Assembly (NCBI GenBank): GCA_002104895.1 | Contig: MCFG01000248.1 | Coordinates: 32,501 to 52,500, forward strand | Source of the DNA: Anaeromyces robustus | Lineage: Eukaryota; Neocallimastigomycota; Neocallimastigomycetes; Neocallimastigales; Neocallimastigaceae | DNA length: 20,000 nt | Reading direction: 5' to 3' | Shown: in pieces, positions 2,009 to 19,086 of the stretch | How positions within the stretch are numbered: position 1 is the stretch's first letter | Layout of the letters: every line of letters starts with the position of its first letter | Made by a program: the position numbers and the translations under genes | Notes under the pieces: model-generated | Seen by the model: only the letters and a program-made list of their open reading frames with translations | What the model was told of the DNA's origin: nothing | Database searches by the model: none

Positions 2009-5000
2009 TTATTTAAAATAACTTATAAATTTTTTTAAAGCACCTTTAATATTTATCATTTTATTTTGTTTATTGGTATTATTTGCTTTTTTATTATTTG
2101 ATTTGTTTATTTTAGTGTTATTAGTATTATTCAATGATTTTACTTCTGAATTTAAGGATTTATTTTTAATATTATTATTGTTATTGTTGTTTACTTGATT
2201 TTGATTTTCTTTTGTTGTAATATTTTTATTATTTTCATTATTTTCATTATTTTCATCTTGATTATCTATTAAAGTTATATCATTTTTAATTATATTTTCT
2301 TTTCTGAAATACATATCTTTTTTGATGATAGATACATAATTATTTAACATGGATTTAATTAATTCACTGTTATATAGTACTTCATTATATATGAAACTCA
2401 TTTTATAGTTATCTTTATTTTCATATACAATGAACATAAAGTCTGGTGAATTTTCCAACGTTAATAAATCTTTAGTTCCTTTAAATGTTAGTTCTTCATC
2501 ATCACTTGTAACATTAAGTAAATCTTTTCTATCAAGTATTTCAAAGATTTCTTCATATCTTATATGTTTACCTAATTCAACATCATCACCACCTTGCATT
2601 TCATATGGATCAAATTTAAACCATGAATTACAAGTTGGAAGACCTAATGTTTCAGATACCGTTGAAAATGGTAAATTATAATCGTAAACAGTTAATAACA
2701 TATTCATTACATTCTTAATTATATCAATTAAACTTAAATCTTCAATTTTAACTAAAATTGGAATATATTTTGCAAATAAACCAATTAAGTTTTCGGTGGA
2801 AGAATTATTTCTATTTGAACTAATAAGTGCTGTATAAATACTAGTATTATTAGAATAAATAGATAATATTAAACTGTAAACCGTTAATAATATAGCTGTT
2901 TTAGATAAACCATATTTCTTTGAAATTGAATTGATTTTATCATAAAATTCGGTATCGGTAGTGATCGATACTTCATTATACTTTTTCTTTTCATTTTCAC
3001 TCTCACTCTTCATGGAATTTTCTTTTGTGATGATTCTTAAGTTTTCGTGATAACCTTCAAATAAAGATTGATAATAATTCATTTGATTTGAATAAGATTC
3101 AGAATGAACAAGTTCATCATAATAGATAGCATAATCACTATATTGAATTGGTAATTCCTCTAATTTACCATTATTATAAATTACATTTAATTCATTTATT
3201 AAAATACCAAAGGAATAACCATCCGCTATTCTATGATCCATATCAATCATTAATACGGATTTATTGATCATTCCTACTCTAATTAATAAATCTTTAGTAA
3301 TATCAAATGGTCTTATGAATTTTGAAAAGTTTTCAATAGTATATTCTTCAATTTTAACTTCGACATGATCTCTTGTTTTAACAAACATTTTATATTTACC
3401 ATTTATTTCCTTTTCAATAAAGTAGGATCTTAATATATCATGTCTGTCAAAGATCACAGCTAAAGCATCCGTTAATTTTTGAATTTGGACATCTTTAGGT
3501 AATTGATAATAACTAACCATATTACCTGAATATTCACTTAAAAAGTCTAAATCAAAGTGATTGGCATTATAGGTGAAGTTGGATAAAATAGATGTACTTG
3601 GGAATTCATTTTGGTTTCGTTTTTCAATGACAGTACTATTAAATTTGTTGGATAATTTAATATTTTCAATAGCCATAGCTAAATCTTTAATGGTTGAATT
3701 TTTCATGACATCTTTCATGGTAATGTGAACATTACAGAATTTCTTTATTTCAGCTACTGTTCTAATTGCATTCAAACTATTTCCTCCTAATTCATAGAAA
3801 TCACTCATGATACCAATTTCATTTTCCGCCATATTAAACATATCACTATAAATTTTACAAATAATTTTTTCAGTTTCGGTTACTGGAGCAACGTATTTTT
3901 CTTTATTTAAATCTTCAATATTTGGTTTAGGTAATGCCTTCTTATCTAATTTACCATTATTTGTAAGTGGTAATTCATAAATTCTAATAAAGTATCTTGG
4001 AATCATATATTTTGGTAATTTATCCTTTAAGTAATTCTTAATTTCGTTGGATTCAATATTATTGGAAGTTAGGTAGTAACAAATTATGTATTTGTCTCCA
4101 TTCTCATTGGTTTCACAAAGAACAACTGAATTTTCAATTCCTTCTATTTCTTTGACAGTATTTTCAATTTCACCAAGTTCAATTCTTTGTCCTCTTATTT
4201 TAACTTGGAAATCGTATCTTCCTATACATATGATTTCACCATTTTCTGTCCATTTACCAATATCTCCTGTTCTATAAATAATTCGGTTATGTTCATCATG
4301 ATTGAAATTGAATGGATTTTCAACAAACTTTTCATTTGTTAATTCTTTTTGATTTAAATATCCCTTACCAACACCATATCCTCCAATACATATTTCTCCT
4401 TCAATACCTACTGGAACTGGTCTTAGGTAATGATCTAAGATATAAATTTGGAAGTTACATAATGGTTTACCAATAGTAATGACACTTGGATCACGATCAA
4501 GTACCTTAATATTAGATACTACAGATGTTTCAGTTGGTCCGTAGACACTACATACCTTACCATTACTACAATTTTGGATATTCTTTACAATGGTATTTTC
4601 AACCTTTTCACCTCCCAATAATACCCATTTAACATTTCTAAGGGAAGCGGAGAATTTTTCAAATTTCAAATAATTTTCCATTCTTGATGGAACGGTAAAG
4701 ATATAATCAACGTTATATTTAGTGATTAAATTACTTAATAATTCAGGATTATTGTAGTCTTCATCATTACCTAAAATAATGGTACTACCTCTTAATAATG
4801 GATAATTAATTTCACCAATAGAAATATCATGAGTAAATTTACAAATACCTAATACATTATCGAAATCTTCATCGTAGATACTACCTTCACCATTAAAGGT
4901 TTGACTGTAAAGACAGTAATTTATTAAGTTGCTGTGAGTGATCATGGTTCCCTTTGGTTTACCGGTGGTACCAGAAGTAAATAATATGTAGCATAAATCA

Positions 5001-7885
5001 TCACCTTGATTAACATATTCAATACTTTCAATGTTAGTAGTGTAATCATGTTCTTGTAAAGCATAAGTTTTAATATTTTCATCAAACTTAAGCTTATTCT
5101 CTTTTTCTTCTTCTTCTTCTGAAAGAACATATTTAATAATTAATTTTGCATTAACTTCATTCACCATATATTTAATTCTTTGTTCAGGGAATTCTGGATC
5201 TATTGGTAGGTAAGCAGCTCCAGATTTCATAATACCAAGAATAGCAACAATAAAGTAGTACGATCTCACACTGATAACCGGAACAATATCACCTCTTCCA
5301 ATATTTTGTTTTCTTAAGTAATGTGCAAGAGAATTGGACATTTCATATAATTTTTTATAGGTAATTTTAATTCCATTATTAATAATGGCACATTTTTCTG
5401 GATATACATGAGCAATTCTATCAAATTCTTCATGGTATAATTTATTAAAGTCATAGTCAAAGTGATTATCATTAAATTCTTTAACAATTTTTGTTTTTTC
5501 ATGCTCTGGAATATATTCAATACTCTTGACTTCTTCGCCAAATTTAGAAATACTTTTCATGACTTCAACGTAACTATTAACAATTTCATTAATAATTTTA
5601 TCATTGTATAAGTCTTTGTTATATAATACATTAATACTGCAATCATTACTATTTTCAATGATCATCATAACAAAATCAAATTTAGAGATATTATTGGCTT
5701 CTTTCATTATTTCCTCCATTAATGATGTCATTTCTTCATCAAATTCATTTTCATTAACAAATATATTATTTTTGTTAGACGAAGATGTGTTTATATATGG
5801 TTGATATATAATGGTATTGTCAAGAGTTTTTATTTTCAATGATTCAAATATTTCAGTTAAGGAAACATCTTGATTGTTATAGGCATTAAATAATAAATCG
5901 GTATTACGTTTTAAAATATCAATAAACTTTTCATTTTCATTATATTTTAATAAAAGTGGAATGGTACTAACAAACATACCAATCATATTTTCAACATATT
6001 GACTATATCTGTTAGCATTAATAGTGGATGTATAGATAGTATTTTGTCCTGTGAATTTTGATAAAACATATCCATAAATACTAATGAAGAAACTTGTTTT
6101 ACTAATACCATTATTTTTGACGTATTTATTAATAGTTTTACATAATTGTGAATCAACAGTCACTGAACTATATTTAATGTTTGAATTATGATTATTATTA
6201 TTTTTCGTATTCTTTTCTTTATTTTCGCTGTTTTTCTCCTTTTTAGGAATATTTAATAATTCATAATCACAATCAAACATATCATGATAGAATTTAATTT
6301 GACTGTCAAAGTATCCATGATTCTTTTTGTCATTCATATATATGGCGTAATCACTGAATTGAACTTCAAGTTTATCAACATGATTATCATAATAATAATT
6401 ATTTAATTCATTCATAATCACCAATAAAGATGCACCATCATATATAATATGATGAACGTCAAATAATATAATTCTATTCTCAATGAAACCTACTCTAATT
6501 AATGGAGCTTTGGACACGTCAAATGGTCTAACGAAGGAATTAACATTTTCAAATGTATACGATTCAAATTCTAATGAACATTCATTATCAATAAATCCGT
6601 AAACTTTAATTTCCCCATTAACTTCTTTTTCTTCATATCTACTTCTTAAAATTTCATGATTATTAAATACCTTGATAAGACCTTCTTTCACCTTTTCAAT
6701 ATCAACTCCTTCATTCAATTTAAATAGAGAAGGTTCATTATATATAATTGTATTTGGATTTTTGCTAGAATCAATATAGACACCTAATTGTTGAGAAGTA
6801 ACTGGGAATTCTAACTTATTTTGTTTTTCAATGATTTCAATTTCTCTTGAAAGGGTTTCATTATTTAAAATTTCATTAATATGTTGACCTAAGTTATAAA
6901 TAACTGAATAAGAATTAATATCTTTAATAGTTAATCTAATATTAAATTCTTTTTCAATTTTTGTAATAACTCTTATGGCATTCAAACTATCTCCACCTAA
7001 TTCGAAGAAATCACTCATAATTCCAATTTCTTTGGAATCAATATTAAATATTTCACTGTAAATCTTACAAATACATTTTTCAATTTCGGTTTCTGGGGCA
7101 ACATATTTTTCTTTAATGTAATCATTAAGATCTGGCTCTGGTAATTCTTTTCTATTTAATTTACCACTAATCGTTAATGGAATTTCATATATTCTCTTAT
7201 AGTAATTTGGAACCATATATAATGGTAATTTCTTCTTGAGATATTCTCTAATTTCTTTTCCATTAATTTGTTCATCAGATGAAACGAAATAGCACATTAA
7301 GAATTTTTCTTCATTTTCTTTCTTTTTATCAATAACGATACAATGTACGATACCTTCAATTTCTTTAATAATACTTTCAATTTCTCCTAATTCAATTCTT
7401 TGACCATGAATCTTAACTTGGAAATCAATTCTACCTAAATATTCAATGTCACCATTTTCCGTCCATTTTCCAAGATCACCTGTTCTATACATAATATCAC
7501 AATATTTATTATTATCAAAATTGAATGGATTTTTGATGAATTTTTCTTTGGTTAATTCTTCCCGGTTAAGGTATCCCTTACCAATACCATAACCTGAAAT
7601 AAATAATTCACCTTCTACTCCAATTGGTACAGGTTTAAGATATTTATCCAATAAGTATCCCTTATAATTACATTGTGGTTTTCCAATAGTTACTTTACTA
7701 TCCTTAGTATCGTCTATTTCTTTATAGGTTGAGGTAACGGTACATTCAGTTGGACCATAACCATTGTAAATCTTACAATTAGAATATTTATGAATTTCTT
7801 TACATAAATTAATAGAAAAGTCTTCACCAAGTAAAATCAAAGTTTTTATTAAACTCAAGGATTTTCTGAAATCTGGATCTTCCAA
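2009..7885 (-). CDS. NRPS segment 5: rest of A4, T4, C5, A5, T5, terminal C, tail
   Basis: The open frame covers about 1,958 residues; it has no ATG at its 5' end (the first codon is TTG), because it continues A4 from segment 4. Residues counted from 7885: A4 remainder 1-249 with YGPTECTV and YRTGDLG; T4 262-340 with Ser300 in ELGGDSL; C5 350-799 with HHIIYDG at 478-484 (6454-6434); A5 816-1319 (5440-3929) with FTSGTTGKPKG at 969-979, FTHDIS (D1020), YGPTETSV and GKLDKK; T5 1331-1410 with Ser1370 in ELGGNSL; a terminal C-like domain 1419-1866 with DHRIADG at 1550-1556 (3238-3218); and a hydrophilic tail to 1958. No thioesterase or reductase follows, so the terminal C domain is the likely release or cyclisation unit. 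The stop is TAA at 2009-2011. Confidence 0.92.
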   Translation of the reverse strand: MEDPDFRKSLSLIKTLILLGEDFSINLCKEIHKYSNCKIYNGYGPTECTVTSTYKEIDDTKDSKVTIGKPQCNYKGYLLDKYLKPVPIGVEGELFISGYGIGKGYLNREELTKEKFIKNPFNFDNNKYCDIMYRTGDLGKWTENGDIEYLGRIDFQVKIHGQRIELGEIESIIKEIEGIVHCIVIDKKKENEEKFLMCYFVSSDEQINGKEIREYLKKKLPLYMVPNYYKRIYEIPLTISGKLNRKELPEPDLNDYIKEKYVAPETEIEKCICKIYSEIFNIDSKEIGIMSDFFELGGDSLNAIRVITKIEKEFNIRLTIKDINSYSVIYNLGQHINEILNNETLSREIEIIEKQNKLEFPVTSQQLGVYIDSSKNPNTIIYNEPSLFKLNEGVDIEKVKEGLIKVFNNHEILRSRYEEKEVNGEIKVYGFIDNECSLEFESYTFENVNSFVRPFDVSKAPLIRVGFIENRIILFDVHHIIYDGASLLVIMNELNNYYYDNHVDKLEVQFSDYAIYMNDKKNHGYFDSQIKFYHDMFDCDYELLNIPKKEKNSENKEKNTKNNNNHNSNIKYSSVTVDSQLCKTINKYVKNNGISKTSFFISIYGYVLSKFTGQNTIYTSTINANRYSQYVENMIGMFVSTIPLLLKYNENEKFIDILKRNTDLLFNAYNNQDVSLTEIFESLKIKTLDNTIIYQPYINTSSSNKNNIFVNENEFDEEMTSLMEEIMKEANNISKFDFVMMIIENSNDCSINVLYNKDLYNDKIINEIVNSYVEVMKSISKFGEEVKSIEYIPEHEKTKIVKEFNDNHFDYDFNKLYHEEFDRIAHVYPEKCAIINNGIKITYKKLYEMSNSLAHYLRKQNIGRGDIVPVISVRSYYFIVAILGIMKSGAAYLPIDPEFPEQRIKYMVNEVNAKLIIKYVLSEEEEEKENKLKFDENIKTYALQEHDYTTNIESIEYVNQGDDLCYILFTSGTTGKPKGTMITHSNLINYCLYSQTFNGEGSIYDEDFDNVLGICKFTHDISIGEINYPLLRGSTIILGNDEDYNNPELLSNLITKYNVDYIFTVPSRMENYLKFEKFSASLRNVKWVLLGGEKVENTIVKNIQNCSNGKVCSVYGPTETSVVSNIKVLDRDPSVITIGKPLCNFQIYILDHYLRPVPVGIEGEICIGGYGVGKGYLNQKELTNEKFVENPFNFNHDEHNRIIYRTGDIGKWTENGEIICIGRYDFQVKIRGQRIELGEIENTVKEIEGIENSVVLCETNENGDKYIICYYLTSNNIESNEIKNYLKDKLPKYMIPRYFIRIYELPLTNNGKLDKKALPKPNIEDLNKEKYVAPVTETEKIICKIYSDMFNMAENEIGIMSDFYELGGNSLNAIRTVAEIKKFCNVHITMKDVMKNSTIKDLAMAIENIKLSNKFNSTVIEKRNQNEFPSTSILSNFTYNANHFDLDFLSEYSGNMVSYYQLPKDVQIQKLTDALAVIFDRHDILRSYFIEKEINGKYKMFVKTRDHVEVKIEEYTIENFSKFIRPFDITKDLLIRVGMINKSVLMIDMDHRIADGYSFGILINELNVIYNNGKLEELPIQYSDYAIYYDELVHSESYSNQMNYYQSLFEGYHENLRIITKENSMKSESENEKKKYNEVSITTDTEFYDKINSISKKYGLSKTAILLTVYSLILSIYSNNTSIYTALISSNRNNSSTENLIGLFAKYIPILVKIEDLSLIDIIKNVMNMLLTVYDYNLPFSTVSETLGLPTCNSWFKFDPYEMQGGDDVELGKHIRYEEIFEILDRKDLLNVTSDDEELTFKGTKDLLTLENSPDFMFIVYENKDNYKMSFIYNEVLYNSELIKSMLNNYVSIIKKDMYFRKENIIKNDITLIDNQDENNENNENNKNITTKENQNQVNNNNNNNIKNKSLNSEVKSLNNTNNTKINKSNNKKANNTNKQNKMINIKGALKKFISYFK

Positions 7886-10800
7886 AAAATAATCTAAATC
7901 TTGTTGGTGTAGTATTTATAAATTCAACGTTATTTTTATTAATGTATTTAGAAAGTAAGTCAATATTTTCACATAAGTTATCGACTAAGACTATGGTTAA
8001 TCCATTGACTAAACTTAATGTGATTTCATTATGATAAATATCAAATGAAAAGTTGGTGAGAGCAAGCATATTACTTACATTATCCTTTCTTATTATACCA
8101 TGTACCGATAAGTTGCTATTATTATTAAATTGTCTTATATTATTATATATATTGAAATGACTGACTAATACACCTTTTGGTTTACCCGTTGTACCAGATG
8201 TGAATAAGACATAACATGTATCATTATCTTCATTGATATTATTACTAGAATTGATGTTTACCTTATAATCATGTTGTTTTAAATCATACATAACATAATT
8301 TTCATTTAATTCAACTAAACTATTAATAACATTTTGAGTGTTAGAGAAGAGAATAATTTTTGGTTGAACTTCATTCAAAATAAATTGAATACGTTCAATT
8401 GGTAATTTTTTATCAATTGGTAAGAAAGCACCACCTGCCTTAGAAATAGCAAGTGTACTGATAATGAAATATGGAGAACGATCACAAATTACAGGAACAA
8501 TATCATTTCTAGTAATACCACATTTTCTTAAATAATGAGCTAAAGAATTACTCATTTTATCTAATTCATTATATGTTATAGTGGATTCATTATAGACAAT
8601 GGCACATTTATTTGGATTTTCTTTTGCAATTCTACTAAATTCAATATGATATAAATTATCATTTCCTTCAATGTTAACATCATTATTAAATCCATTTATA
8701 ATTTTTTCTTTTTCATCACTTGGAATATACTCAATGTTTTTAACTTGTTCTTCAAATGAGGAAATATTTTTAATCACTTCAATAAAACTATCAATGATTC
8801 TATTAATCATTGGGTTATCATAAATGTTTCTGTTATATTCAATAACAATTGTATAATTATTTTCACGTTCAACCACTTCACAAGTTAAATTAAACTTTGA
8901 TTTATTATTGTTTTCGTCTACAATTTCTTCAACATTTAATGGTACTTCATTTTCAGTGATTACACCTTCCATATTATCATTTGTACTTGATTTAAGGTAT
9001 GGTTGATATATGAATGAATTTTTTAATTTTTTCAATTTTAATAAATTGAATATTTCTGATAATGAAATATCTTGGTTATCATACATATCTACTAATAAAT
9101 TCATATTTCTTTTAATAGTATCAATGAATTTTTCATCTTCATTTTCATATTTCAAAAGAATTGGTAATGTACTGACAAACATACCAATCATGTTTTCAAC
9201 ATATCCATTATTTCTGTTGGCACTAACAATCGAACTATAGATAATATCTTGTCCACTGTATTTAGATAAAACATATCCATAAATACTAATAAAGAAGGCT
9301 GTCTTACTAATACCATTATTTTTAATATATTCATTAATTTTTTCACTTAATTCTACATCAATAATTTTTGTATTATTTCCGATGTTAGTATTTATTTCAT
9401 TATCTTCTTCTGAATCTTCATTTATATTAATATTTTCCTTCTTTGGAATATTTAATATTTCATAATCACATTCAAACATTTTACGATAAAATTCAATTTG
9501 GTTTTCAAAGTATCCTTTTTTCTTCTTTTCATCCATACTTATGGCATAATCACTATATTGAATTTGTAATTCATCAATTTCATTATCATAATAATATTTA
9601 TTCAATTCATTTGTGATAATTAATGTAGTCGTACCATCAGCAATAATATGATGTATATCAATTAAAAGAATCTTATCTTCAATAAAACCTACTCTAATTA
9701 ATGGTGCCTTAGATAAATCAAATGGTCTAACAAACGATTTAACATTTTCAAATGTATAGGATTCAAATTCTAATGAACATTCATTATCAATAAATCCATA
9801 AACTTCAGTTTGTCCATTAATTTCTTTCTTTTCATACTTACTTCTAAATATTTCTTGATTTTCAAATAATTGATTAATTGCTTCTTTGATCTTTTCAATG
9901 TTAATGCCTTCATTTAATTTAAATATTGAAGGAATATTATAAATAATGGTGTTTGGATGTTTTATAGAATCAATATAGACACCTAATTGTTGAGCAGTTA
10001 TTGGGAATTCTAATTTATTTTGTTTTTCTATAATTTCAATATCTTTTTTTCCATTTCCATTATTTAATATTTCTTCAATATGTTTTCCTAATTGACTGAT
10101 AACTGAATGTAAAAGAATATCCTTAATACTTAATTTAACATTAAGTTCTTTTTCAATTTTAGAAATAACTCTGATGGCATTTAAACTATCTCCACCTAAT
10201 TCGAAGAAATCACTCATAACGCCAATTTCTTTGGAATCAATATCGAATATTTCACTGTAAATTTGACAAATACATTTTTCAATTTCGGATTCTGGTGCAA
10301 TATATTTTTCTTTAATTAAATCTTCAATATTTGGTTCTGGTAATGATCTTCTATCTAATTTACCATTGGAGGTTAATGGAATTTCTTGAATTCTCTTATA
10401 ATAATTTGGAACCATATATAATGGTAATTTCTTTTTGAGGTATTCTCTAATATATTTACCTTGAATTTCATCGTTAGTTGTAATGAAGTAACACGTTAAA
10501 TATTTTTCTCCATTTTCTTTGAACTTATCAATAACAACAGAAGATTCAATATCTTCAATTTCTTTAACCGTATTTTCAATTTCACCAAGTTCAATTCTTT
10601 GACCACGAATCTTAACTTGGAAATCAATTCTTCCTAAATATTCAACTTCTCCATTTTCTGTCCATTTACCAATATCTCCTGTTTTATACATAATTCTGTT
10701 ATGCACTTCATTATCGAAATTGAATGGATTTTCTATATATCTTTCTTGTGTTAATTCTTTACGATTAAAGTATCCCTTACCAACACCATAACCACCAACA

Positions 10801-13800
10801 TAGATTTCACCTTCTACTCCAACTGGTACTGGTTTAAGATATTTATCTAAAATGTATACTTTACAATTACATAATGGTTTACCAATCGTAATTAAAATTT
10901 CTTCATTTGGTTGACCATGAATTTGTTTAGAAAATTGTTTACTGGTACAAATAACAGTTGCTTCCGTAGGTCCATAACCATTGATTATTTCTGCATCGGA
11001 ATATTTGAAAAGTTCTCTTATTAAATTAAGATTTAAATATTCTCCTCCAAATAATATCCATTTAACATTCTTGATACAATTTCTAAACTTTTCAAATTTC
11101 ATATAATTTTCAATTCTGGAAGGAACACTAAAGATATAATCAACGTCATAAGTACTAATTAATGAACTTAACCTATCTGGACTATTAAATTCTTCGTTAC
11201 TACATAATACTAAAGTTGTTCCTTTCAATAATGGATAATACACTTCTCCCATTGACATATCAAATGTAAATTTAGAGAATACTAAGGCATTATTAATATT
11301 CTTTTCATAAATGTAATCTTTGCCGTTAATTGTTTGACTGTACAAACAATAATTGATTAAATTATTATGAGTAACTAAAGTACCCTTTGGTTTACCAGTA
11401 GTACCTGAAGTGTATAAAATATAGATTAAATCATCACCTTCATTAACATTTTCAATATCCTCAATGTTTTCTGAATAATTATGATTTTCAATTAAATATT
11501 CTTCCACATGATTCAATTTAATATCTTTATTGTTAGAAGTAGCTAAATATTTAAGAATGATTTTTGGATTTGCTTCATTAATGATATATTCAATACGATC
11601 ACTTGGGAATTCAGGATCAATTGGTAAATAAGCTGAACCAGATTTCATTACAGCCAATGTAGCCACGACAAATAAGTAAGATCTATCACATAAAATAGGA
11701 ACAATATCACCTTTGCCAACCCCTTTACTTCTTAAATAGAAAGCTAAAGAATTACTCATTTCATCAATTTCCTTAAAAGTAAATTTCATTCCTTGATAAA
11801 TAATAGCATTTCTATTTGGATATTTCTTTGCAACCTTACTAAATTCAACATGATATAATTTATCAAAATCATATTTAATATTTTCTTTATTAAATGAAAG
11901 TAAAATATTTTCTTTTTCTAATTCAGGAATGTATTCGATATCCTTAACCATTTCTTCGAAATGAGAAATATTCTTAATGACTTCAATATAACTATCAAGA
12001 ATCTTATTGATCATCGAATCATCGTATAAATTCTTATTATATTCTACATGAATGGTGTAATTATAATCATTTTCGGAAACGTCAACTAATAAATCAAACT
12101 TGGATACATTATTAAATTCATTAAGAATATTTCTATCCGAATCAAAGACCTTACCATCTAAATCAAATATGTTGTTTTCGATATTCTTAACATTTTTAAT
12201 ATTTGGTTGGTAAACAAAAGCATTATTAATATTTGGTAATTTTAATGCTTTAGTAATATCAGATAATGAAATATCTTGATTATCATAAATATTGACTAAT
12301 AAATTCATATTTCTCTTTATGATGTCAATAAATTTTTCATTTTCATTTTCATATTTCAAAAGAATTGGTAAAGTACTGACAAACATACCTATCATGTTTT
12401 CTACGTATCGATTGTTTCTATTAGCACTAATAATTGAACTATAAATAATATCTTGTCCACTGTACCTGGATAAAATATATCCATAAATACTGACATAGAA
12501 AGCCGTCTTACTAATACCATTATTTTTAGTATATTCATTAATAGCTTGACTTAATTTACTATCAATGATCTTTGTACAATTTACAATATTGGAACTACTT
12601 TCTTCATTTATTTATTGTTTTCTTTCTTTGGAATATTTAATACTTCATATTCACATTCAAACATTTTACAATAGAATTCAATTTGATTTTCAAAATATCC
12701 TTCCTTCTTCTTTTCATCCATATATAATGCATAATCACTGAATTGTACCTCAAGCTCATCAACTTCATCATCATTATAGAAATGATTTAATTCGTTCATA
12801 ATAATCGTTGAGGTAACACCATCCGATATAATGTGATGCATATCAATTAATAAAACTTTATCTTCAATGAAACCTACTCTTATTAATGGAGCTTTCGATA
12901 AATTAAATGGTCTAATAAAGTTTTTAACATTGTCAAATGTATACGATTCAAATTTTAATCGGCATTCATTATCAATACAGCCGTAAACTTCAATTTCACC
13001 ATTAACTTCTTTTTCAATATATTTAGATCTAAGTATTTCTTGTTTTTGAAGTAATTCACCAATGGCACATTTAATCATTTCTATATCAACATTATCTTTA
13101 AATTTAAATATTGATGGTACATTATAAATAATTGTGTCAGGATTTTTAATGGTATCAATATATACACCTAATTGTTGAGCAGTGACTGGGAATTCTAATT
13201 TATTTTGTTTTTCAATAATTTGAATTGCTTTAACGGCACCTTCATCATTATTGATAATTTCTTCAATACGTTTTCCGAAATCATAAATAACTGAATTTAA
13301 AAGAATATCTTTAATATTTAATTTAATATCAAGCTCCTTTTCATTTCTGGTGGTGACTCTAATAGCATTTAAACTATTACCTCCTAATTCATAGAAATCA
13401 CTCATTACCCCAATTTCACTTTCATTCATATTAAACATTTCACTGTAAATTTGACAAATACATTTTTCAATTTCAGTTTCCGGTGCTACATACCTTTCTT
13501 TATTTAAATCTTCAGAACTTGATTCTGGTAAAGCTTTTCTATCTAATTTACCATTAGAAGTTAATGGAATTTCTTGAATTCTCTTATAATAATTTGGAAT
13601 CATGTAGAGAGGTAATTTCTTTTTGAGATATTCCTTAATATCTTTTACTTGAATTTCATCATCATCATTCGAGGAAATGAAGTAACAAATTAAATATTTT
13701 TCACCATTTTCCTTCTTACTGTCAATGACAATGGATTGTTGAATACCGCTTACTTCATTAACGGTATTTTCAATTTCACCAAGTTCAATTCTTTGACCAT

Positions 13801-16800
13801 GAATTTTCACTTGGAAATCAATTCTACCTAAATATTCAATTTCACCATTTTCTGTCCATTGACCAAGATCCCCAGTTCTATACATCATGTTGTTATGGTC
13901 ATCATAATTAAAATTGAATGGATTTTCAAGGAATTTTTCTTTAGTTAAATTTTCACGATGAAGATATCCCTTACCAACGCCATAACCTCCAATAAAGATT
14001 TCACCTTCAACTCCAATTGGAACTGGTTTAAGATATTTATCTAAGATATAAACTTTGGTATTACATAAAGGTTTACCAATGGAATTAAATAAACCATTTT
14101 TATAATCATTTTCAATATTTTCTTTGGTATACTTTTTGATAATACAACAAACCGTGGTTTCGGTTGGACCATAACCATTTAAAACTTTTATGTTATTATT
14201 AATAAGTTTCTTTACGAGTTGATATTCCAATTTTTCACCTCCAAGCAGCATAAATTTCAAAGTTTGAATGGATTCTAAAAATTCCTTGTAATTTATATAA
14301 TTTTCAATTCTTGAAGGAACACTCCATAAACAATCGATTTGATGTTTTTGAATTAATTTACTAATGGCAATTGGATCATTAAATTCTTCATCGTTAGAAA
14401 GGACAATTTTATTACCTCTTAGTAAGGGATAATGGATTTCAGATAATGACATATCAAATGTGAATTTTGAAAATGCTAAAACACTATGAATACTCTCTTC
14501 ATAAAGATCATCCTGACCATTAATCTTTTGACAATAAAGACAATAATTAATTAAATTATTGTGAGTCAATAAAGTTCCCTTTGGCATTCCTGTAGTTCCT
14601 GAAGTAAATAGTACATAACTTAAATCATCACTGACATTGACATTATCAACACCGAAAGTATTTTCATCGTATTTATGATGTTGTAATTGATATTCCACAA
14701 TACCCTTATTTTTGAATTGCACCTTATTTCTATTTTCTTTATCGGTAATGAATTCAAGAACAAATTTTGCATTAACCTCCCTTACCATATATTCGATTCT
14801 TTCCATTGGGAAATCTGGATCAATTTGTAAATAGGCAGCACCAGATTTCAATACAGCAATAAAGGCAACAATAAAATAATAGGATCTTTCACAAATAATT
14901 GGAACAATGGCATTTCTTCCAATATTTTGTTTTCTTAAATAATAAGTTAAAGAATTACTCATTTCATCCAATTCACGATACGTAATGATGGTATCATTAA
15001 ACACGACAGCACATTGATCAGGAATTTCTTTAGCCAATTTACTAAATTCAACATGATACAATCGATCAAAGTCATAGGTAAAGGAATTTCTATTAAATTC
15101 TTCCATCATTTGAATTTTTTCGCCTTCTGGAATATATTCAATAGTTTTGAGAGGATCATCAAATTTCATAATATTTCTAATGACGACTTCATAACTGTCA
15201 AGAATACGACGTATAATTTTGGAATCATACGTTTCATGATTATAATTAATAGAAATGGTATAGTCAAATTTTGTTAAAGGATCATTTCTGTTTAATTCAT
15301 TTGGATCTTCATAACTTACAAAAATATCTGTTCCATGGCCATTATTGGAAGATACTGTACTACTTTTTTCTTCTAATTTATTTTTGGGTTGATAGATGAA
15401 TGAATTTTTCATATTCTTTAAATTTAATAATCTTGATAATTCGGAGAAAGAGAGTTCCTGATTATTATAAATTTCCATGACCATATTCATATTTTGTTTA
15501 ATGGTCGTTAGGAAGGAGGTATCCGGATGATCATATTTTAATAATATAGGAAGAGTACTCACAAACATACCAAACATATTTTCAATAGAATGATGATGAC
15601 GATTAGCACTCATAATCGAACTATAAATCCTATCTTGACCACTATACTTTGATAAAACATATCCATAAATAGTAATGAAAAATGCGGTCTTACTAATACC
15701 ATGACTTTTAACGTATTCATTAATTAAATGACTAGCGGATTTATCAATATTTTTGTTTAAAACGAATATATCGGAATCATCATCTTTTTCCGTTTCATTA
15801 TTTTTCCTCTTTTTTGGAAGATTTAGGATTTTGTAATCGTTGGACGAAAGTAAATTTTTATAAAATTCAATTTAATCCTTATAATCGCCATGATTCATTT
15901 TTTCGTTGACGTGAAGGGCATAATCACTGTATTGAATGTCTAATTCGTGAACCTGATCTGTATTATAATAATGATTGAGTTGTTCTTTAAGCGCTAAAAT
16001 TGTTGAACCATCCGATATAATATGATGCATATCCACTAATAATACCTCATTTTCAATAAAACCTATTCTAATTAATGGTGCCTTTGATAAATCAAACGGT
16101 CTAACAAATTCATTTTTATTATCATAGGTGTAATTTTCAAATTTAAGTTGACATTCATCATCCACTTCCCCGTAAATTTCAATTTTATTATTAATTTCCT
16201 TTTCGATATATTTCGTTCTAAGAATTTCTTGTTTTTCAAATAATTGCGTGAATCCTTTCTTTATCTTTTCAATATCGATATTGTGATTTAATTGGAAATA
16301 ACTTGGAATATTATAAATAGTACTTTCGGGGTTTTTAATGGAATCAATATATACCCCTAATTGTTGAGTGGTTACCGGGAATTCCTTTTTATTTTGTTTT
16401 TTAATGATTTCCACTTTATTATGGAAATGATTATTTCCATTCCTTTGAATTTCTTCTATTCTTTTACCCAAATCACAAACCTTTGGATAAGTAAATATAT
16501 CCTTAATATTTAATTTAATTTTTAATTCTTTTTCGATAGCAGCAACTGTCTTAATAGCACTTAAACTTGTTCCACCGATTTCAAAATACGTAGAATACTT
16601 ACCAATTTTATCAAGATCAATATGAAAGGCTTGACTATAAATTTTACAAATGGTCTTTTCAATTTTAGTTTCTGGGGCAACATAATTACTACTTAATAAA
16701 CGATCAATATCTGGTTCAGGTAAGGATTTTCTATCCAATTTACCATGAGCAGTTACTGGAACTTTATCAATTTGAATGAAATAACTTGGAATCATATACA

Positions 16801-19086
16801 TTGGAAGTTTTGTTTTCAAATAATTTCTAATATCTTCCCCCGTGATATTGTTAGATTTGGTAATGTAATAACCAACTAAATATTTTTCATTACTTCCCTT
16901 TTTCATTTTATCAATCACCACGGTGTAGTCAATACCTTTAATTTCTTTTACAATTTGTTCAATTTCCGGTAATTCAATTCTTTGACCTCGAATTTTAACT
17001 TGAAAATCTTTTCTACCTAAATGAATGACTCTGCCATCCGGAGTCCATTTACCAAGATCTCCGGTACCGTACATTTTTAATTTTTTATGAGAATTTTTAT
17101 AAGGGGAGTAAGGGCAATCAATAAAGGTTTCTTTAGTTAATTTTTCTAAATTAAGATAACCACTACAAATACTACGACCCCCAAGATAGATTTCACCTTC
17201 TACGCCAACAGGAACTGGTTTATAATTTTCATCTAAAATATAAACTTGATAGTTACAAGCAGGTTTACCAATACTAATTGTTCTATTATTAATAATATCA
17301 TCATGACTAATATAACTTAAAGCACCAAAAGCCGTAGTTTCTGTCAAGGCATAACTATAATAAATTTTATCATTGGTATGTTGAATAAATAGTTGTAGTA
17401 CATCTCTTGTTAAACTTTCACCGCCAAAGAATAAAGTTTTAAAATTGGCAACAGCCTTTCTAAATTTTTCATTATTTAAATAATTTCGAATTCGAGTACT
17501 GGTACAAACAGCAATTTCTGTATTATACTTTAAAATAATATCGCCCAATAAACTTGGATTATTGTATTCTTCTTCGCTACACAAGACAACGATAACATGT
17601 TTAATTAATGGGAAAAATATTTCGGCGAAACACATTACATACGTAAATTTACTGAAAGCTAATACAGCTTCTGGATTACCAAAGACATCCCTTCCTCCTT
17701 GATAGGTGAGAGCATATTGAGTACTATTAATTACATTATCATGATTAATTAGAATACCTTTAGGTTTACCAGTAGTTCCGGAAGTAAAGAACATACAACA
17801 TATATCATCGCTAGTGTTGACATTAGGGACATCATGTGTATTTTGACGGTAGTCATGACCATCTAATGAATATTCAAAAATAGAATCGTCAAAATCAAAG
17901 GTATTTTCCTTGGATTGATGAGGAATATATTCCAAAATAATTTTAGCCTTGACTTCATTGACCATATACTTGACACGATCTTTAGGGAATTCTGGATCAA
18001 TAAATAAAAAGACACCTCCTGCTTTCATAATAGCAATTGAAGCAATAACATAGTAATAGGAACGTTCACAAATAATAGGGATAACCTCATTTCTTTTAAC
18101 GCCAAGTTTTCTTAAATAATGACCTAAAGAATTTGTCATTTCATTTAAGGTACCATAGGTAAATTTTTGATCTTTGAAAACAAGAGCTGTTTTTTCAGCA
18201 TTTAATTTTGCAATTTTACTAAATTCTGTGGGATAAATTTTTTCGTAACCATAATCATAAATATTTTCATTGAAGTCATAAAGAATTTTATTTTTTTCCT
18301 TTTCACTAATATATTCAATATCACTTAAAATTTTACCATAATTATCAGGAACTTTAACGAAGACTTCGATAAAACTTTCTAAAATATTTTGAATTAAAGT
18401 GTCATCATACAAATTTGTATTATAATCCAAAGAAATAAGGTAACCATCCTTTTGATCCATAACACGGAAAGCTACATCCAAATTTTTATTTTTTTTTAAA
18501 AATTTATCAAATCCATAATTCATTTGATCAAAAGATTCAAAAAGGAAACAATTATTAGGTTTAAGTAAGCTTAACTTTCAGATATTTCTGAAAATAAAAT
18601 TGATGGATTTTTATAATGATAATAATAATAGGTTAAACAATGGTCAATGTCATTAAATATATCCATTAATGTACCATTTTTATTACATTTAATTAAAAAT
18701 GGTTGAGTGGTGATAGTGGTGGTAATATCTTCTTCATCACTACATCTTCCTTCTTCTCTTCCTATGTCATTTCCACAAAATAAGGTATAAATAATTTCTT
18801 GACCGGTATACTTGTACATAACAAAACCATAAATACTAAGTAAAAGAGAAACAGGATTTAAATGATTAGATTCCACAAACCCTTTAACCTTTTCATAATA
18901 ATCATTAATAATTAATGATTCTTGATGTTTAAATACTTTTTCATTTCCTCTAAATTTTTGGTAATATTCCTTTTTAGGAACGGCTAATACATTGAAATCA
19001 CAATTAAATCTTTCTTTTAAGAAATTCAATGGGTTTTCAGAATTTTCCTTGGAATTAAGATTATGACCACTTGTTAAATGATTCAT
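2009..19086 (-). CDS. Five-module nonribosomal peptide synthetase locus, frame interrupted four times
   Basis: This giant gene would assemble a short peptide on carrier proteins in the cytosol, without ribosomes. Domain order from the N terminus is half-C, A1-T1, C2-A2-T2, C3-A3-T3, C4-A4-T4, C5-A5-T5, terminal C, Asn-rich tail; about 5,680 residues. Five A domains carry the A3 loop (FTSGTTGKPKG or close), the A7 motif TGD, A8 GRxDFQVKIxGQRIE and A10 GKLxRK. Carrier serines lie at 16567, 13375, 10187, 6988 and 3778 (first base of each codon), spaced 3188-3210 bases. No thioesterase, epimerase or methyltransferase is visible. The start at 19084-19086 has A at -3 and an A-rich leader. The frame is interrupted near 18575, 15872, 12606 and 7885, yet similarity to sister modules continues across every site without an intron-like gap. 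Family identity is certain from motifs; whether the gene is functional, and the product, are not known. Confidence 0.93.
2012..2284 (-). other. Asn-rich C-terminal tail with basic amphipathic end
   Basis: About 91 residues after the terminal C domain are dominated by Asn, Lys, Glu and Thr, encoded by AAT/AAC-rich sequence, with runs such as NNNNNNN. The last 16 residues (MINIKGALKKFISYFK) are less biased and could form a basic amphipathic helix. It could be a docking or membrane-association element, or simply AT-driven low complexity. No known domain is recognised. Confidence 0.7.
2288..3631 (-). other. Terminal condensation-like (release or cyclisation) domain
   Basis: The last catalytic domain is a C-domain relative lying after T5, where many fungal NRPSs have a terminal C domain that releases the peptide, often by cyclisation. 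It keeps the second His, Asp and Gly of HHxxxDG as DHRIADG (3238-3218); the first His is Asp. Its start (FPSTSILSNFTYNANHF) lacks the TAQQLGVYIDS segment shared by C2-C5, so it is a distinct lineage. The C-lobe keeps YGLSKTAILLTVYSLILS and NRNNSSTENLIGLF. Function is inferred from position and motif. Confidence 0.8.
7139..8654 (-). other. A4 adenylation domain, divergent N-terminal subdomain, frame change inside
   Basis: Fourth adenylation domain. Its first part differs clearly from A2, A3 and A5: it has IDKKLPIERIQFIL where they have IDPEFPxxRIEYMV, SHFNIYNNIRQF where they have THxNLINYCLYS, and FSFDIYHNEITLSLV where they have FTFDMSxGEVYYPLL. From about the A5 motif (YGPTECTV) onward it again resembles its sisters (YRTGDLGKWTENG, IDFQVKIHGQRIELGEIE). 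Asp235 is present (codon 8042-8040); the pocket reads roughly DINNLGGVT plus Lys. The frame changes at a run of six T near 7885, between motifs A4 and A5. Confidence 0.78.
7824..12608 (-). CDS. NRPS segment 4: C-lobe of C3, A3, T3, C4, N-subdomain of A4
   Basis: The frame is open from about 12608, so the Met at 12395 lies inside the C3 domain and is not a start. Residues counted from 12395: C3 ends near 164; A3 is 181-687 (11855-10335) with YTSGTTGKPKG at 328-338, FTFDMS (D379), YGPTEATV and GKLDRR; T3 is 698-780 with Ser737 in ELGGDSL; C4 is 788-1230, whole, with HHIIADG at 915-921 (9653-9633); A4 begins near 1248 with FTSGTTGKPKG at 1398-1408 (8204-8172). C4 holds an acidic/Asn-rich linker at about 988-1008 between its lobes. 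A3 specificity residues read roughly DMGFLGGVI plus Lys. The similarity leaves this frame at a run of T (about 7885) inside A4; the last 20 or so residues to 7824 are out-of-frame read-through. Confidence 0.9.
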   Translation of the reverse strand, partial: NEESSSNIVNCTKIIDSKLSQAINEYTKNNGISKTAFYVSIYGYILSRYSGQDIIYSSIISANRNNRYVENMIGMFVSTLPILLKYENENEKFIDIIKRNMNLLVNIYDNQDISLSDITKALKLPNINNAFVYQPNIKNVKNIENNIFDLDGKVFDSDRNILNEFNNVSKFDLLVDVSENDYNYTIHVEYNKNLYDDSMINKILDSYIEVIKNISHFEEMVKDIEYIPELEKENILLSFNKENIKYDFDKLYHVEFSKVAKKYPNRNAIIYQGMKFTFKEIDEMSNSLAFYLRSKGVGKGDIVPILCDRSYLFVVATLAVMKSGSAYLPIDPEFPSDRIEYIINEANPKIILKYLATSNNKDIKLNHVEEYLIENHNYSENIEDIENVNEGDDLIYILYTSGTTGKPKGTLVTHNNLINYCLYSQTINGKDYIYEKNINNALVFSKFTFDMSMGEVYYPLLKGTTLVLCSNEEFNSPDRLSSLISTYDVDYIFSVPSRIENYMKFEKFRNCIKNVKWILFGGEYLNLNLIRELFKYSDAEIINGYGPTEATVICTSKQFSKQIHGQPNEEILITIGKPLCNCKVYILDKYLKPVPVGVEGEIYVGGYGVGKGYFNRKELTQERYIENPFNFDNEVHNRIMYKTGDIGKWTENGEVEYLGRIDFQVKIRGQRIELGEIENTVKEIEDIESSVVIDKFKENGEKYLTCYFITTNDEIQGKYIREYLKKKLPLYMVPNYYKRIQEIPLTSNGKLDRRSLPEPNIEDLIKEKYIAPESEIEKCICQIYSEIFDIDSKEIGVMSDFFELGGDSLNAIRVISKIEKELNVKLSIKDILLHSVISQLGKHIEEILNNGNGKKDIEIIEKQNKLEFPITAQQLGVYIDSIKHPNTIIYNIPSIFKLNEGINIEKIKEAINQLFENQEIFRSKYEKKEINGQTEVYGFIDNECSLEFESYTFENVKSFVRPFDLSKAPLIRVGFIEDKILLIDIHHIIADGTTTLIITNELNKYYYDNEIDELQIQYSDYAISMDEKKKKGYFENQIEFYRKMFECDYEILNIPKKENININEDSEEDNEINTNIGNNTKIIDVELSEKINEYIKNNGISKTAFFISIYGYVLSKYSGQDIIYSSIVSANRNNGYVENMIGMFVSTLPILLKYENEDEKFIDTIKRNMNLLVDMYDNQDISLSEIFNLLKLKKLKNSFIYQPYLKSSTNDNMEGVITENEVPLNVEEIVDENNNKSKFNLTCEVVERENNYTIVIEYNRNIYDNPMINRIIDSFIEVIKNISSFEEQVKNIEYIPSDEKEKIINGFNNDVNIEGNDNLYHIEFSRIAKENPNKCAIVYNESTITYNELDKMSNSLAHYLRKCGITRNDIVPVICDRSPYFIISTLAISKAGGAFLPIDKKLPIERIQFILNEVQPKIILFSNTQNVINSLVELNENYVMYDLKQHDYKVNINSSNNINEDNDTCYVLFTSGTTGKPKGVLVSHFNIYNNIRQFNNNSNLSVHGIIRKDNVSNMLALTNFSFDIYHNEITLSLVNGLTIVLVDNLCENIDLLSKYINKNNVEFINTTPTRFRLFFGRSRFQKILEFNKNFDFTW
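12608..15871 (-). CDS. NRPS segment 3: C-lobe of C2, A2, T2, N-lobe of C3
   Basis: This continues segment 2 in the same frame after the TAA. The bases 15871-15614 read on as C-domain sequence (IEFYKNLL, ILNLPKK, HGISKTAFFITIYGYVL), so the ATG at 15613 is not a true start. Residues counted from 15613: C2 ends near 167; A2 is 186-697 (15058-13523) with FTSGTTGMPKG at 336-346, YGPTETTV at 481-488, YRTGDLG, GRIDFQVKIHGQRIE and GKLDRK; T2 is 708-790 with Ser747 in ELGGNSL; C3 begins near 798 with HHIISDG at 926-932 (12838-12818). A2 keeps the amino-anchoring Asp (FTFDMS, D387). Residues at the usual ten specificity positions read roughly DMSWLGGVC plus Lys; I do not assign a substrate. The frame ends in an AAT/AAA-rich linker between the two lobes of C3. 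Confidence 0.9.
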   Translation of the reverse strand: MEFYKNLLSSNDYKILNLPKKRKNNETEKDDDSDIFVLNKNIDKSASHLINEYVKSHGISKTAFFITIYGYVLSKYSGQDRIYSSIMSANRHHHSIENMFGMFVSTLPILLKYDHPDTSFLTTIKQNMNMVMEIYNNQELSFSELSRLLNLKNMKNSFIYQPKNKLEEKSSTVSSNNGHGTDIFVSYEDPNELNRNDPLTKFDYTISINYNHETYDSKIIRRILDSYEVVIRNIMKFDDPLKTIEYIPEGEKIQMMEEFNRNSFTYDFDRLYHVEFSKLAKEIPDQCAVVFNDTIITYRELDEMSNSLTYYLRKQNIGRNAIVPIICERSYYFIVAFIAVLKSGAAYLQIDPDFPMERIEYMVREVNAKFVLEFITDKENRNKVQFKNKGIVEYQLQHHKYDENTFGVDNVNVSDDLSYVLFTSGTTGMPKGTLLTHNNLINYCLYCQKINGQDDLYEESIHSVLAFSKFTFDMSLSEIHYPLLRGNKIVLSNDEEFNDPIAISKLIQKHQIDCLWSVPSRIENYINYKEFLESIQTLKFMLLGGEKLEYQLVKKLINNNIKVLNGYGPTETTVCCIIKKYTKENIENDYKNGLFNSIGKPLCNTKVYILDKYLKPVPIGVEGEIFIGGYGVGKGYLHRENLTKEKFLENPFNFNYDDHNNMMYRTGDLGQWTENGEIEYLGRIDFQVKIHGQRIELGEIENTVNEVSGIQQSIVIDSKKENGEKYLICYFISSNDDDEIQVKDIKEYLKKKLPLYMIPNYYKRIQEIPLTSNGKLDRKALPESSSEDLNKERYVAPETEIEKCICQIYSEMFNMNESEIGVMSDFYELGGNSLNAIRVTTRNEKELDIKLNIKDILLNSVIYDFGKRIEEIINNDEGAVKAIQIIEKQNKLEFPVTAQQLGVYIDTIKNPDTIIYNVPSIFKFKDNVDIEMIKCAIGELLQKQEILRSKYIEKEVNGEIEVYGCIDNECRLKFESYTFDNVKNFIRPFNLSKAPLIRVGFIEDKVLLIDMHHIISDGVTSTIIMNELNHFYNDDEVDELEVQFSDYALYMDEKKKEGYFENQIEFYCKMFECEYEVLNIPKKENNK
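15872..18577 (-). CDS. NRPS segment 2: rest of half-C, A1, T1, N-lobe of C2
   Basis: The frame is open from about 18577; its first ATG is at 18523 and residues below count from there. Residues 1-80 finish the first C-like lobe. A1 is residues 91-605 (about 18253-16709), with FTSGTTGKPKG at 246-256, YGTGDLG at 485-491, RKDFQVKIRGQRIE at 504-517 and GKLDRK at 594-599. T1 is residues 613-693, with Ser653 in EIGGTSLSAI. The N-lobe of C2 starts near residue 703 and carries HHIISDG at 833-839 (16027-16007). A1 is the most divergent A domain: motif A4 reads FTYVMCFAEIF with Val where the family has Asp235, and A5 reads YALTETT instead of YGPTETT. The frame ends at a TAA (15872-15874) in line with Gln of the sister domains, and coding similarity continues in the same frame after it. 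Confidence 0.88.
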   Translation of the reverse strand, partial: KLSLLKPNNCFLFESFDQMNYGFDKFLKKNKNLDVAFRVMDQKDGYLISLDYNTNLYDDTLIQNILESFIEVFVKVPDNYGKILSDIEYISEKEKNKILYDFNENIYDYGYEKIYPTEFSKIAKLNAEKTALVFKDQKFTYGTLNEMTNSLGHYLRKLGVKRNEVIPIICERSYYYVIASIAIMKAGGVFLFIDPEFPKDRVKYMVNEVKAKIILEYIPHQSKENTFDFDDSIFEYSLDGHDYRQNTHDVPNVNTSDDICCMFFTSGTTGKPKGILINHDNVINSTQYALTYQGGRDVFGNPEAVLAFSKFTYVMCFAEIFFPLIKHVIVVLCSEEEYNNPSLLGDIILKYNTEIAVCTSTRIRNYLNNEKFRKAVANFKTLFFGGESLTRDVLQLFIQHTNDKIYYSYALTETTAFGALSYISHDDIINNRTISIGKPACNYQVYILDENYKPVPVGVEGEIYLGGRSICSGYLNLEKLTKETFIDCPYSPYKNSHKKLKMYGTGDLGKWTPDGRVIHLGRKDFQVKIRGQRIELPEIEQIVKEIKGIDYTVVIDKMKKGSNEKYLVGYYITKSNNITGEDIRNYLKTKLPMYMIPSYFIQIDKVPVTAHGKLDRKSLPEPDIDRLLSSNYVAPETKIEKTICKIYSQAFHIDLDKIGKYSTYFEIGGTSLSAIKTVAAIEKELKIKLNIKDIFTYPKVCDLGKRIEEIQRNGNNHFHNKVEIIKKQNKKEFPVTTQQLGVYIDSIKNPESTIYNIPSYFQLNHNIDIEKIKKGFTQLFEKQEILRTKYIEKEINNKIEIYGEVDDECQLKFENYTYDNKNEFVRPFDLSKAPLIRIGFIENEVLLVDMHHIISDGSTILALKEQLNHYYNTDQVHELDIQYSDYALHVNEKMNHGDYKD
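16709..18253 (-). other. A1 adenylation domain with non-canonical substrate pocket
   Basis: Adenylation domain of the loading module. The phosphate loop FTSGTTGKPKG (17788-17756) and the C-terminal motifs are intact, including the A10 Lys. By alignment to GrsA PheA the ten specificity positions read about V-M-A-T-F-G-S-A-F-K. Position 235, an Asp in A2-A5 that binds the substrate amino group, is Val (codon 17636-17638). In known families loss of this Asp goes with substrates lacking an alpha-amino group, such as keto, hydroxy or other carboxylic acids. A5 is also changed (YALTETT). Alternatives are a degenerate, inactive domain. The specificity reading is a hand alignment. Confidence 0.75.
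18571..19086 (-). CDS. NRPS segment 1: N-terminal half condensation domain
   Basis: This open frame of 171 residues is the N terminus of the synthetase. It matches only the C-terminal lobe of the downstream C domains: VLAVPKKE aligns with VLNIPKKE, and YGFVMYKYTGQEIIY with YGYVLSKYSGQDIIY. It begins almost exactly where the sister C domains have just finished their HHxxxDG-bearing N-terminal lobe, so no catalytic histidine is present. Residues 114-128 are Asp/Glu/Thr-rich where the sister domains read SANRNNGYVENMIG. The frame stops at 18571, but residues continuing SLSEIFNLLKL-like similarity resume at once in another frame. The ATG has A at -3. A start further upstream with a missing N-lobe exon is possible, but the 900 bases beyond it show no coding-like sequence. 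Confidence 0.75.
   Translation of the reverse strand: MNHLTSGHNLNSKENSENPLNFLKERFNCDFNVLAVPKKEYYQKFRGNEKVFKHQESLIINDYYEKVKGFVESNHLNPVSLLLSIYGFVMYKYTGQEIIYTLFCGNDIGREEGRCSDEEDITTTITTQPFLIKCNKNGTLMDIFNDIDHCLTYYYYHYKNPSILFSEISES

Follow-up and report, generated by a model that had tools for sequence, protein, structure and literature searches.

A peptide synthetase copy, probably inactivated recently, in Anaeromyces robustus and a putative acid-start, terminal-C-release plan in its gut-fungal family

How would a peptide assembly line of bacterial appearance start and release its product in an anaerobic gut fungus? This question is raised by a stretch of 20,000 nucleotides from Anaeromyces robustus (contig MCFG01000248.1, positions 32,501 to 52,500), hereafter the window, which carries a non-ribosomal peptide synthetase (NRPS) locus ending in a condensation (C) domain. 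NRPSs have been reported in four anaerobic gut fungi, A. robustus among them, and 44% of gut-fungal condensation domains are sister to or nested in those of bacteria, including Clostridium cellulovorans (Swift et al., 2021; PMC8106346). Bacterial-affinity NRPSs in this species are already known. The joint explanation favoured here, with a probability of roughly 0.68, is that the multimodular NRPS copy in the window was inactivated recently, that its family has a single bacterial-type origin, and that the family lines start from an acid and release through the terminal C domain (Ct).

Five minus-strand open reading frames of 1958, 1523, 1001, 883 and 171 aa cover the locus. Pfam searches (E up to 0.001) matched them to Condensation, AMP-binding, AMP-binding_C and PP-binding only, with a best E-value of 3.2e-132, far beyond chance. 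Custom profiles for C, adenylation (A) and carrier (T) domains, built from the window and iterated over fetched paralogs, gave the order half C-A1-T1-C2-A2-T2-C3-A3-T3-C4-A4-T4-C5-A5-T5-Ct (Table 1), and the repeating C, A and T of a modular NRPS are present. The five C-A-T units of the preliminary description are borne out by five A, five T and six C domains, except that the first C is a C-terminal half only. Its other observations largely hold as well: a C domain comes last in the map, and at the same Pfam threshold no thioesterase (TE), epimerase (E) or methyltransferase (MT) was found in the window ORFs, nor was a C-terminal reductase (PF07993). The DNA is AT-rich and fungus-like (7–12% GC in the flanks, 20–31% in the gene), and the QQLGVY motif noted at C starts is found in the internal C2–C5 and not in the terminal C.

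Table 1. Features of the NRPS locus, in window positions.
Feature	Position	Strand	Evidence
Half starter C, profile positions 166-449, without HHxxxDG; spans the frame change at about 18574	18269..19086	-	profiles, trees
ATG start of the window NRPS	19086	-	
Frame change 1, about 18574	18571..18577	-	C431 sibling reads through in one frame
A1, starter A, code VMAVLFSAF, Val replaces Asp235	16736..18223	-	profiles, A tree
T1	16445..16660	-	profiles
C2, broken by in-frame TAA	15092..16393	-	profiles
In-frame TAA, lesion 2	15872..15874	-	absent from C431
A2, code DMSWMLGVC	13544..15046	-	profiles
T2	13253..13468	-	profiles
C3, interrupted at 12608-12611 (about 12610) by frame change 3	11889..13204	-	profiles
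A3, code DMGFIFGVI	10356..11843	-	profiles
T3	10065..10280	-	profiles
C4, internal C, intact, HHIIADG	8685..10019	-	profiles
A4, read as two pieces on either side of frame change 4 (near 7890, within 7824-7915)	7157..8639	-	
T4	6866..7081	-	profiles
C5, internal C, intact	5471..6820	-	Pfam, profiles
A5, code DIGFVLVVV	3947..5425	-	profiles
T5	3656..3871	-	profiles
Terminal C (Ct), DHRIADGYS, member of the terminal-C clade	2228..3616	-	profiles, trees
Asn-rich linker, basic C-terminal tail (...MINIKGALKKFISYFK), stop	2009..2227	-	

What had been taken for one assembly-line gene from 2009 to 19086 proved to be interrupted four times, once by an in-frame TAA and three times by a change of frame, the coding sequence lying in five frames. 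A sibling copy on another contig, C431, shares the start of the window gene and about 900 bp of its upstream flank, and is 97% identical to it over 13083-18911 and 90% over 4950-12681. All four window lesions are absent from C431, which reads through each. The sibling has lesions of its own, namely an in-frame TAA at C431:11598-11600 and, near 14839-14952, a deletion of some 290 bp accompanied by a change of frame; the copy ends at 25843. Downstream of this truncated copy lies an ORF at C431:30987-31739 that appears reverse-transcriptase-like, a label read from the translation. Compared piece by piece over five matches (80% or more, 100 aa or longer; the last window piece left out), the two copies gave dN/dS values of 0.13–0.30. 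Both copies were therefore under constraint until recently, and the decay is recent. The dS values range from 0.03 to 0.10 by piece, identity is uneven along the locus, and the last module of C431 is closer to a different window module. Gene conversion or module shuffling may explain this uneven likeness.

An unbroken gene in the living fungus, with all four breaks put down to tiny introns or to errors of sequencing or assembly, is unlikely. The three frame changes do lie near short A or T runs, where some lesions could be assembly errors, and the low dN/dS against C431 would also suit an unbroken gene. Nevertheless, the TAA cannot be explained as a run-length error, and the piecewise C431 matches reach the breaks, leaving little space for an intron. 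Moreover, three other loci of the same assembly (37, 21 and 21 kb) carry no break at all. Over the seven fetched loci, 18 breaks were counted in 172 kb, with none in C93, C424 and C50a, two each in C158 and C431, four in the window and ten in C50b. A Monte Carlo test of this unevenness, with counts and lengths entered by hand and with loci that were those fetched rather than a random draw, gave 2 of 100,000, or 0.008 when C50b was set aside. The uneven spread therefore argues against a uniform error rate. In addition, an alternative genetic code with TAA as a sense codon was ruled out: frames of 12,319, 7076 and 6970 aa are open under the standard code, and stops are rare inside C domains (7 of 92 scored matches). 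Recent inactivation thus remains part of the favoured explanation, and the window copy probably makes nothing now. The undescribed tetra- or pentapeptide that had been predicted for it was an overreach for a gene with four lesions; an intact ancestor would still have had five modules.

The ancestry of the family was addressed by domain phylogenies. In a FastTree analysis of 309 C rows, from which C domains covering less than 80% of the profile (less than 25% for window pieces) were dropped, all 109 gut-fungal rows, 8 window pieces among them, formed one clade with support 1.0 among bacterial-type sequences. The terminal C domains made one subclade of it (n = 12, SH support 1.0) and the starter C domains another (n = 11), with support of 0.75 when the window half C was included and 0.98 when it was not; the rest were other C domains. 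IQ-TREE, run on a subset of 94 sequences in which 18 further gut-fungal and 28 further bacterial rows were drawn at random, recovered the gut-fungal clade (48/48) at UFBoot 100. Inside it, the terminal-C clade (n = 12) reached UFBoot 98 and the starter-C clade (n = 13) 100, the latter including the half Cs of the window and of the proteins P0006 and P0056. Five C domains of reductase-carrying proteins form the sister of the gut-fungal clade (UFBoot 100), and the next group out (100) consists of Ruminococcus and Clostridiales C domains, a Paenibacillus one among others. The A tree gave the same picture: 94 of 94 gut-fungal rows formed one clade (1.0) among bacterial-type sequences, with a starter clade of 16 (0.994), after rows below 30% (genome), 80% (gut-fungal proteins, 18 of 31 used) and 85% (others) had been dropped. 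Three metagenome proteins, P0053, P0056 and P0070, were counted as gut-fungal by similarity.

The suggestion of a bacterial-type ancestry in a fungus is thereby upheld, since the sampled Neocallimastigales C and A domains are single clades among bacterial-type sequences; the window domains of both kinds fall inside these clades. The trees suggest one bacterial-type ancestor for the sampled C and A domains of the Neocallimastigomycota NRPS family, probably a gut Clostridia-like one. A scan of bacterial genomes with two short patterns narrowed 83 stretches to three loci in metagenome-assembled genomes, from Ruminococcus UBA3767, Ruminococcus RUG13311 and Clostridiales RUG460, so that the nearest donor is poorly sampled. 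The RUG names of two of them presumably denote rumen genomes.

The preliminary description had gone further and proposed a mixed origin, that is, a bacterial line that acquired or kept a CT domain of the Dikarya type cyclising the peptide head-to-tail. This is very improbable. A terminal C is present, TE is absent, and the terminal C loses the first His of HHxxxDG and keeps the second, all of which would suit such a domain. The phylogeny, nevertheless, places the terminal C domains as a nested subclade of the same Neocallimastigales clade as the internal ones, and no Dikarya CT was included in the tree. Mixed origin had been tied in advance to a split of the C domains between clades; all sampled gut-fungal C domains, whether starter, internal or terminal, lie in one, and by that test it fails. 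Searches of PDB sequences with a Ct profile scored 110 bits for LgrA, 105 for TycC, 73 for PsoA and only 26 for the CT domain of TqaA, while an internal-C profile scored 150 for TycC and 139 for LgrA and did not reach TqaA at E 10. The Ct is therefore slightly more TqaA-like than an internal C is, which profile breadth or convergence would explain. No Dikarya protein occurs among the named ones of the 84 window-Ct matches listed, many of them unnamed; Piromyces sp. E2 supplies the best matches (49 and 51%), and A. robustus, P. finnis and Orpsp1 (a code for Orpinomyces) are represented too. For the Ct of the paralog C424, one of 48 matched proteins is from Dikarya (psoA). A plasmid search with the Ct gave identities of 21–24% for the best 20 of 319 records. 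Furthermore, the first A domain lacks Asp235, which makes the free N-terminal alpha-amine needed for head-to-tail closure unlikely.

This starter A domain is a general feature of the family. Code positions follow GrsA numbering. Asp235 is missing in 16/16 A domains of the starter clade vs none of the other 75 gut-fungal A domains that could be read (of 78, three have a gap at 235), and in 8/194 bacterial control A domains. The first A domains of P0131, P0132 and P0134 lack it too, which brings starter-type domains to 19/19. The same holds for all eight genome loci read (window, C431, C424, C50a, C50b, C93, C158 and C47), although these counts are of sequences and not of independent events, as P0057 repeats C424 and the window and C431 are siblings with the same A1 code. 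Within the starter clade, residue 235 is V in six, N in four, A in three, I in two and G in one. In bacterial loci L033–L035, the first A likewise lacks Asp235 (AICVISASI), and in the tree it is placed outside the starter clade of the fungi. It is the alpha-amino group of the substrate that Asp235 contacts (PMC11355689), and keto-acid A domains typically have an aliphatic residue at this position; one of them keeps Asp235, which shows that the residue does not decide the matter by itself (PMC10949194). The window codes match none of the seven codes listed in PMC11355689. Judging by these motifs, the starter A domains probably load a non-alpha-amino acid. Its class is uncertain, as residue 235 varies, and aryl and beta-amino acids would be compatible as well.

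The first C domain appears dead. The readable starter C domains have HRxxxD followed by a residue other than Gly (S, D, K, E or N) in 10/10 cases, and the window half C lacks the motif. The half-C start was also considered as decay of the window copy; this was rejected as its only source, since C431 has the same start and upstream flank and since half-C starts are found as well in P0006 (Orpsp1), P0132 (Piromyces sp. E2), P0134 (A. robustus) and P0056. P0131 begins with an A domain and no first C. Two proteins depart from the pattern, P0066 (A. robustus) and P0050 (Orpsp1): their first C is of the internal type, and their first A retains Asp235. They are either exceptions to the start rule or gene models cut at the start. 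P0066 reads C-A-T-Ct, and its Ct is sister to that of the window.

At the other end of the line, the terminal C domains seem catalytically competent. In the 12 of the clade, the catalytic (second) His is kept in all, the first His is replaced by N, S or D in all, and DG is kept in 11. Six further terminal C domains (His 6/6, DG 5/6) bring the totals to 18/18 and 16/18, and most share the motif [NSD]HxxxDG[YF]S. Internal C domains, by comparison, have HH in 83/84. The predicted Ct structure is of moderate confidence (pLDDT 74). Behind the Ct, the window, C424, C50a, C93, C158 and C50b have a linker that is repetitive or rich in Asn, and their last 20–25 residues are basic and amphipathic. In a post hoc comparison this tail was extreme relative to internal 25-mers of the same protein at 6/6 A. 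robustus loci (fractions 0 to 0.0005); the signal was weaker in P0001–P0004. It is possibly a membrane or docking tail.

Taken together, the plan in those lines of this genome whose start was read comprises a dead or halved first C, an A domain without Asp235, a T, (C-A-T)n with HHxxxDG C domains and Asp235 A domains, a terminal C and often a basic tail. The first C, being without the catalytic His and halved or absent in other lines, would do no chemistry. A1 would load a carboxylic acid, be it aliphatic, aryl, keto or hydroxy, that carries no alpha-amino group, and the elongation modules would add amino acids in order, expected to be L because no E domains were found. Ct would then receive the chain carried by the last T and pass it on, either to a free acceptor, whether amine, alcohol or water, or to a hydroxyl on the starter or on a side chain. 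With the starter in module 1, the product of an intact version of the window line would be an acid followed by four amino acids. As the capped chain would lack a free alpha-amine, head-to-tail lactam closure would be unlikely; release onto an amine or alcohol in solution or onto water, or else lactone formation with a hydroxyl, would be favoured. Gene models with one module, half C-A*-T-Ct, point the same way: in P0132 and P0134, whose A domain lacks Asp235 and where Pfam confirms A, T and terminal C, the Ct would be left without a carrier-bound acceptor. These lines are candidates for simple acyl-conjugate formation, and they may be annotation fragments, several P proteins being partial gene models. 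We infer from the sequences that the family makes L-peptides capped with an acid, and that Ct releases them by transfer to a free nucleophile or to a hydroxyl of the chain itself.

A competing account keeps ordinary peptides: the starter A would still load alpha- or beta-amino (e.g. anthranilate-like) acids through another contact, and Ct would cyclise the product head-to-tail. A beta-amino aryl acid, as in fungal anthranilate A domains, also lacks the alpha-amine that Asp235 binds, and position 235 is variable. Such a start is nonetheless doubtful given that Asp235 is lost in every starter-type A domain and kept in every readable other one, and an acid start is preferred.

The window is one of many NRPS loci in the A. 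robustus genome (70.17 Mb, 769 contigs), which holds at least 76 scored C-domain matches among 165 candidates. Intact paralogs include C424 (6970 aa; P0057 of A. robustus matches this ORF in 99% of sampled 12-mers), C50a (7076 aa) and C93 (12,319 aa, 11 modules in one ORF). In C93:13062-50018, three A domains have an identical code and C domains score equally in pairs, which suggests that modules were duplicated within the gene not long ago. The NRPS at C50:55278-76635 (C50b) is in 11 open pieces, its decay being more advanced than that of the window. Exon-by-exon searches of the genome found one TE match (C445, from 5 candidates) and six matches of 8 candidates to the reductase PF07993, for instance on C590. 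Three-module NRPSs ending in a reductase were seen in Piromyces, Orpsp1 and a metagenome (P0006, P0056, P0062), and the 3728-aa frame at C590:32536 is probably their Anaeromyces counterpart. Speculatively, the bacterial ancestor may have resembled such lines most closely. The text searched of the rumen gene-cluster paper PMC8241843 does not refer to reductase domains.

In origin, then, the window is an ordinary family member that is broken here and leads to a coherent, testable rule. If true, this rule would offer a sequence-level reading for many orphan gut-fungal NRPSs, as makers of acid-capped rather than plain peptides, and would imply an independent origin of terminal-C release in fungi. 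The genes for rumen chemistry would be the intact C424, C50a and C93 and not the broken window copy. When A. robustus is grown together with Fibrobacter, six of its NRPSs increase (PMC8406330), a result tied to the present loci by species only. As for precedent, the main text of Swift et al. does not mention 'thioesterase' or 'terminal', and a description of the Asp235-less starter A, dead starter C and terminal C was not found in the portions of PMC8106346 searched, supplements lying outside the search. Nor was the start and stop rule found in the listed titles and abstracts on anaerobic-fungal NRPSs or on terminal C and HRxxxDD (15 of 29 listed for the latter), with supplements again outside the search.

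Among known systems, enniatin and beauvericin synthetases start from a hydroxy acid, and their defining feature is an N-methyltransferase domain with twin T domains. The window differs in having no MT and single T domains, and the gut-fungal lines differ in their many modules and in C domains that form one clade among bacterial-type sequences. Enniatin-type enzymes have a non-catalytic N-terminal C, catalytic middle C and a C-terminal C (PMC11546977); to judge by their motifs, the gut-fungal lines would share this layout and would likewise begin with something other than an alpha-amino acid. The motifs in question at the start are the halved first C of the window, the HRxxxD of its paralogs and the first A without Asp235. 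The X domain of glycopeptide lines has HRxxxDD (PMC11546977), with HR for HH as in the fungal starter C; this is a likeness of motif only, and the fungal domain is the first of its line and does not sit beside the last T. The bacterial loci L033–L035 resemble the fungal lines in C and A domains near the fungal clade and in their first A, but by Pfam and custom profiles they read A-T-C-A-T-C-A-T-reductase (NAD_binding_4) without a terminal C, and L033 runs off its contig. Finally, the CT domain of TqaA, like the gut-fungal Ct, replaces a TE and has xHxxxD with the catalytic His, whereas the profile match between them is far weaker than that to LgrA, and the gut-fungal starter probably lacks a free alpha-amine. 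The odds seem evenly balanced that gut fungi evolved a release of their own, in which duplication of a bacterial-type elongation C domain gave rise to a starter C that is dead and a terminal C that is live as an acyltransferase, alongside a non-amino-acid starter A. This would yield acid-capped peptides phylum-wide and acyl conjugates in one-module lines, released onto soluble acceptors or as depsipeptide rings, in convergence with the CT domains of Dikarya.
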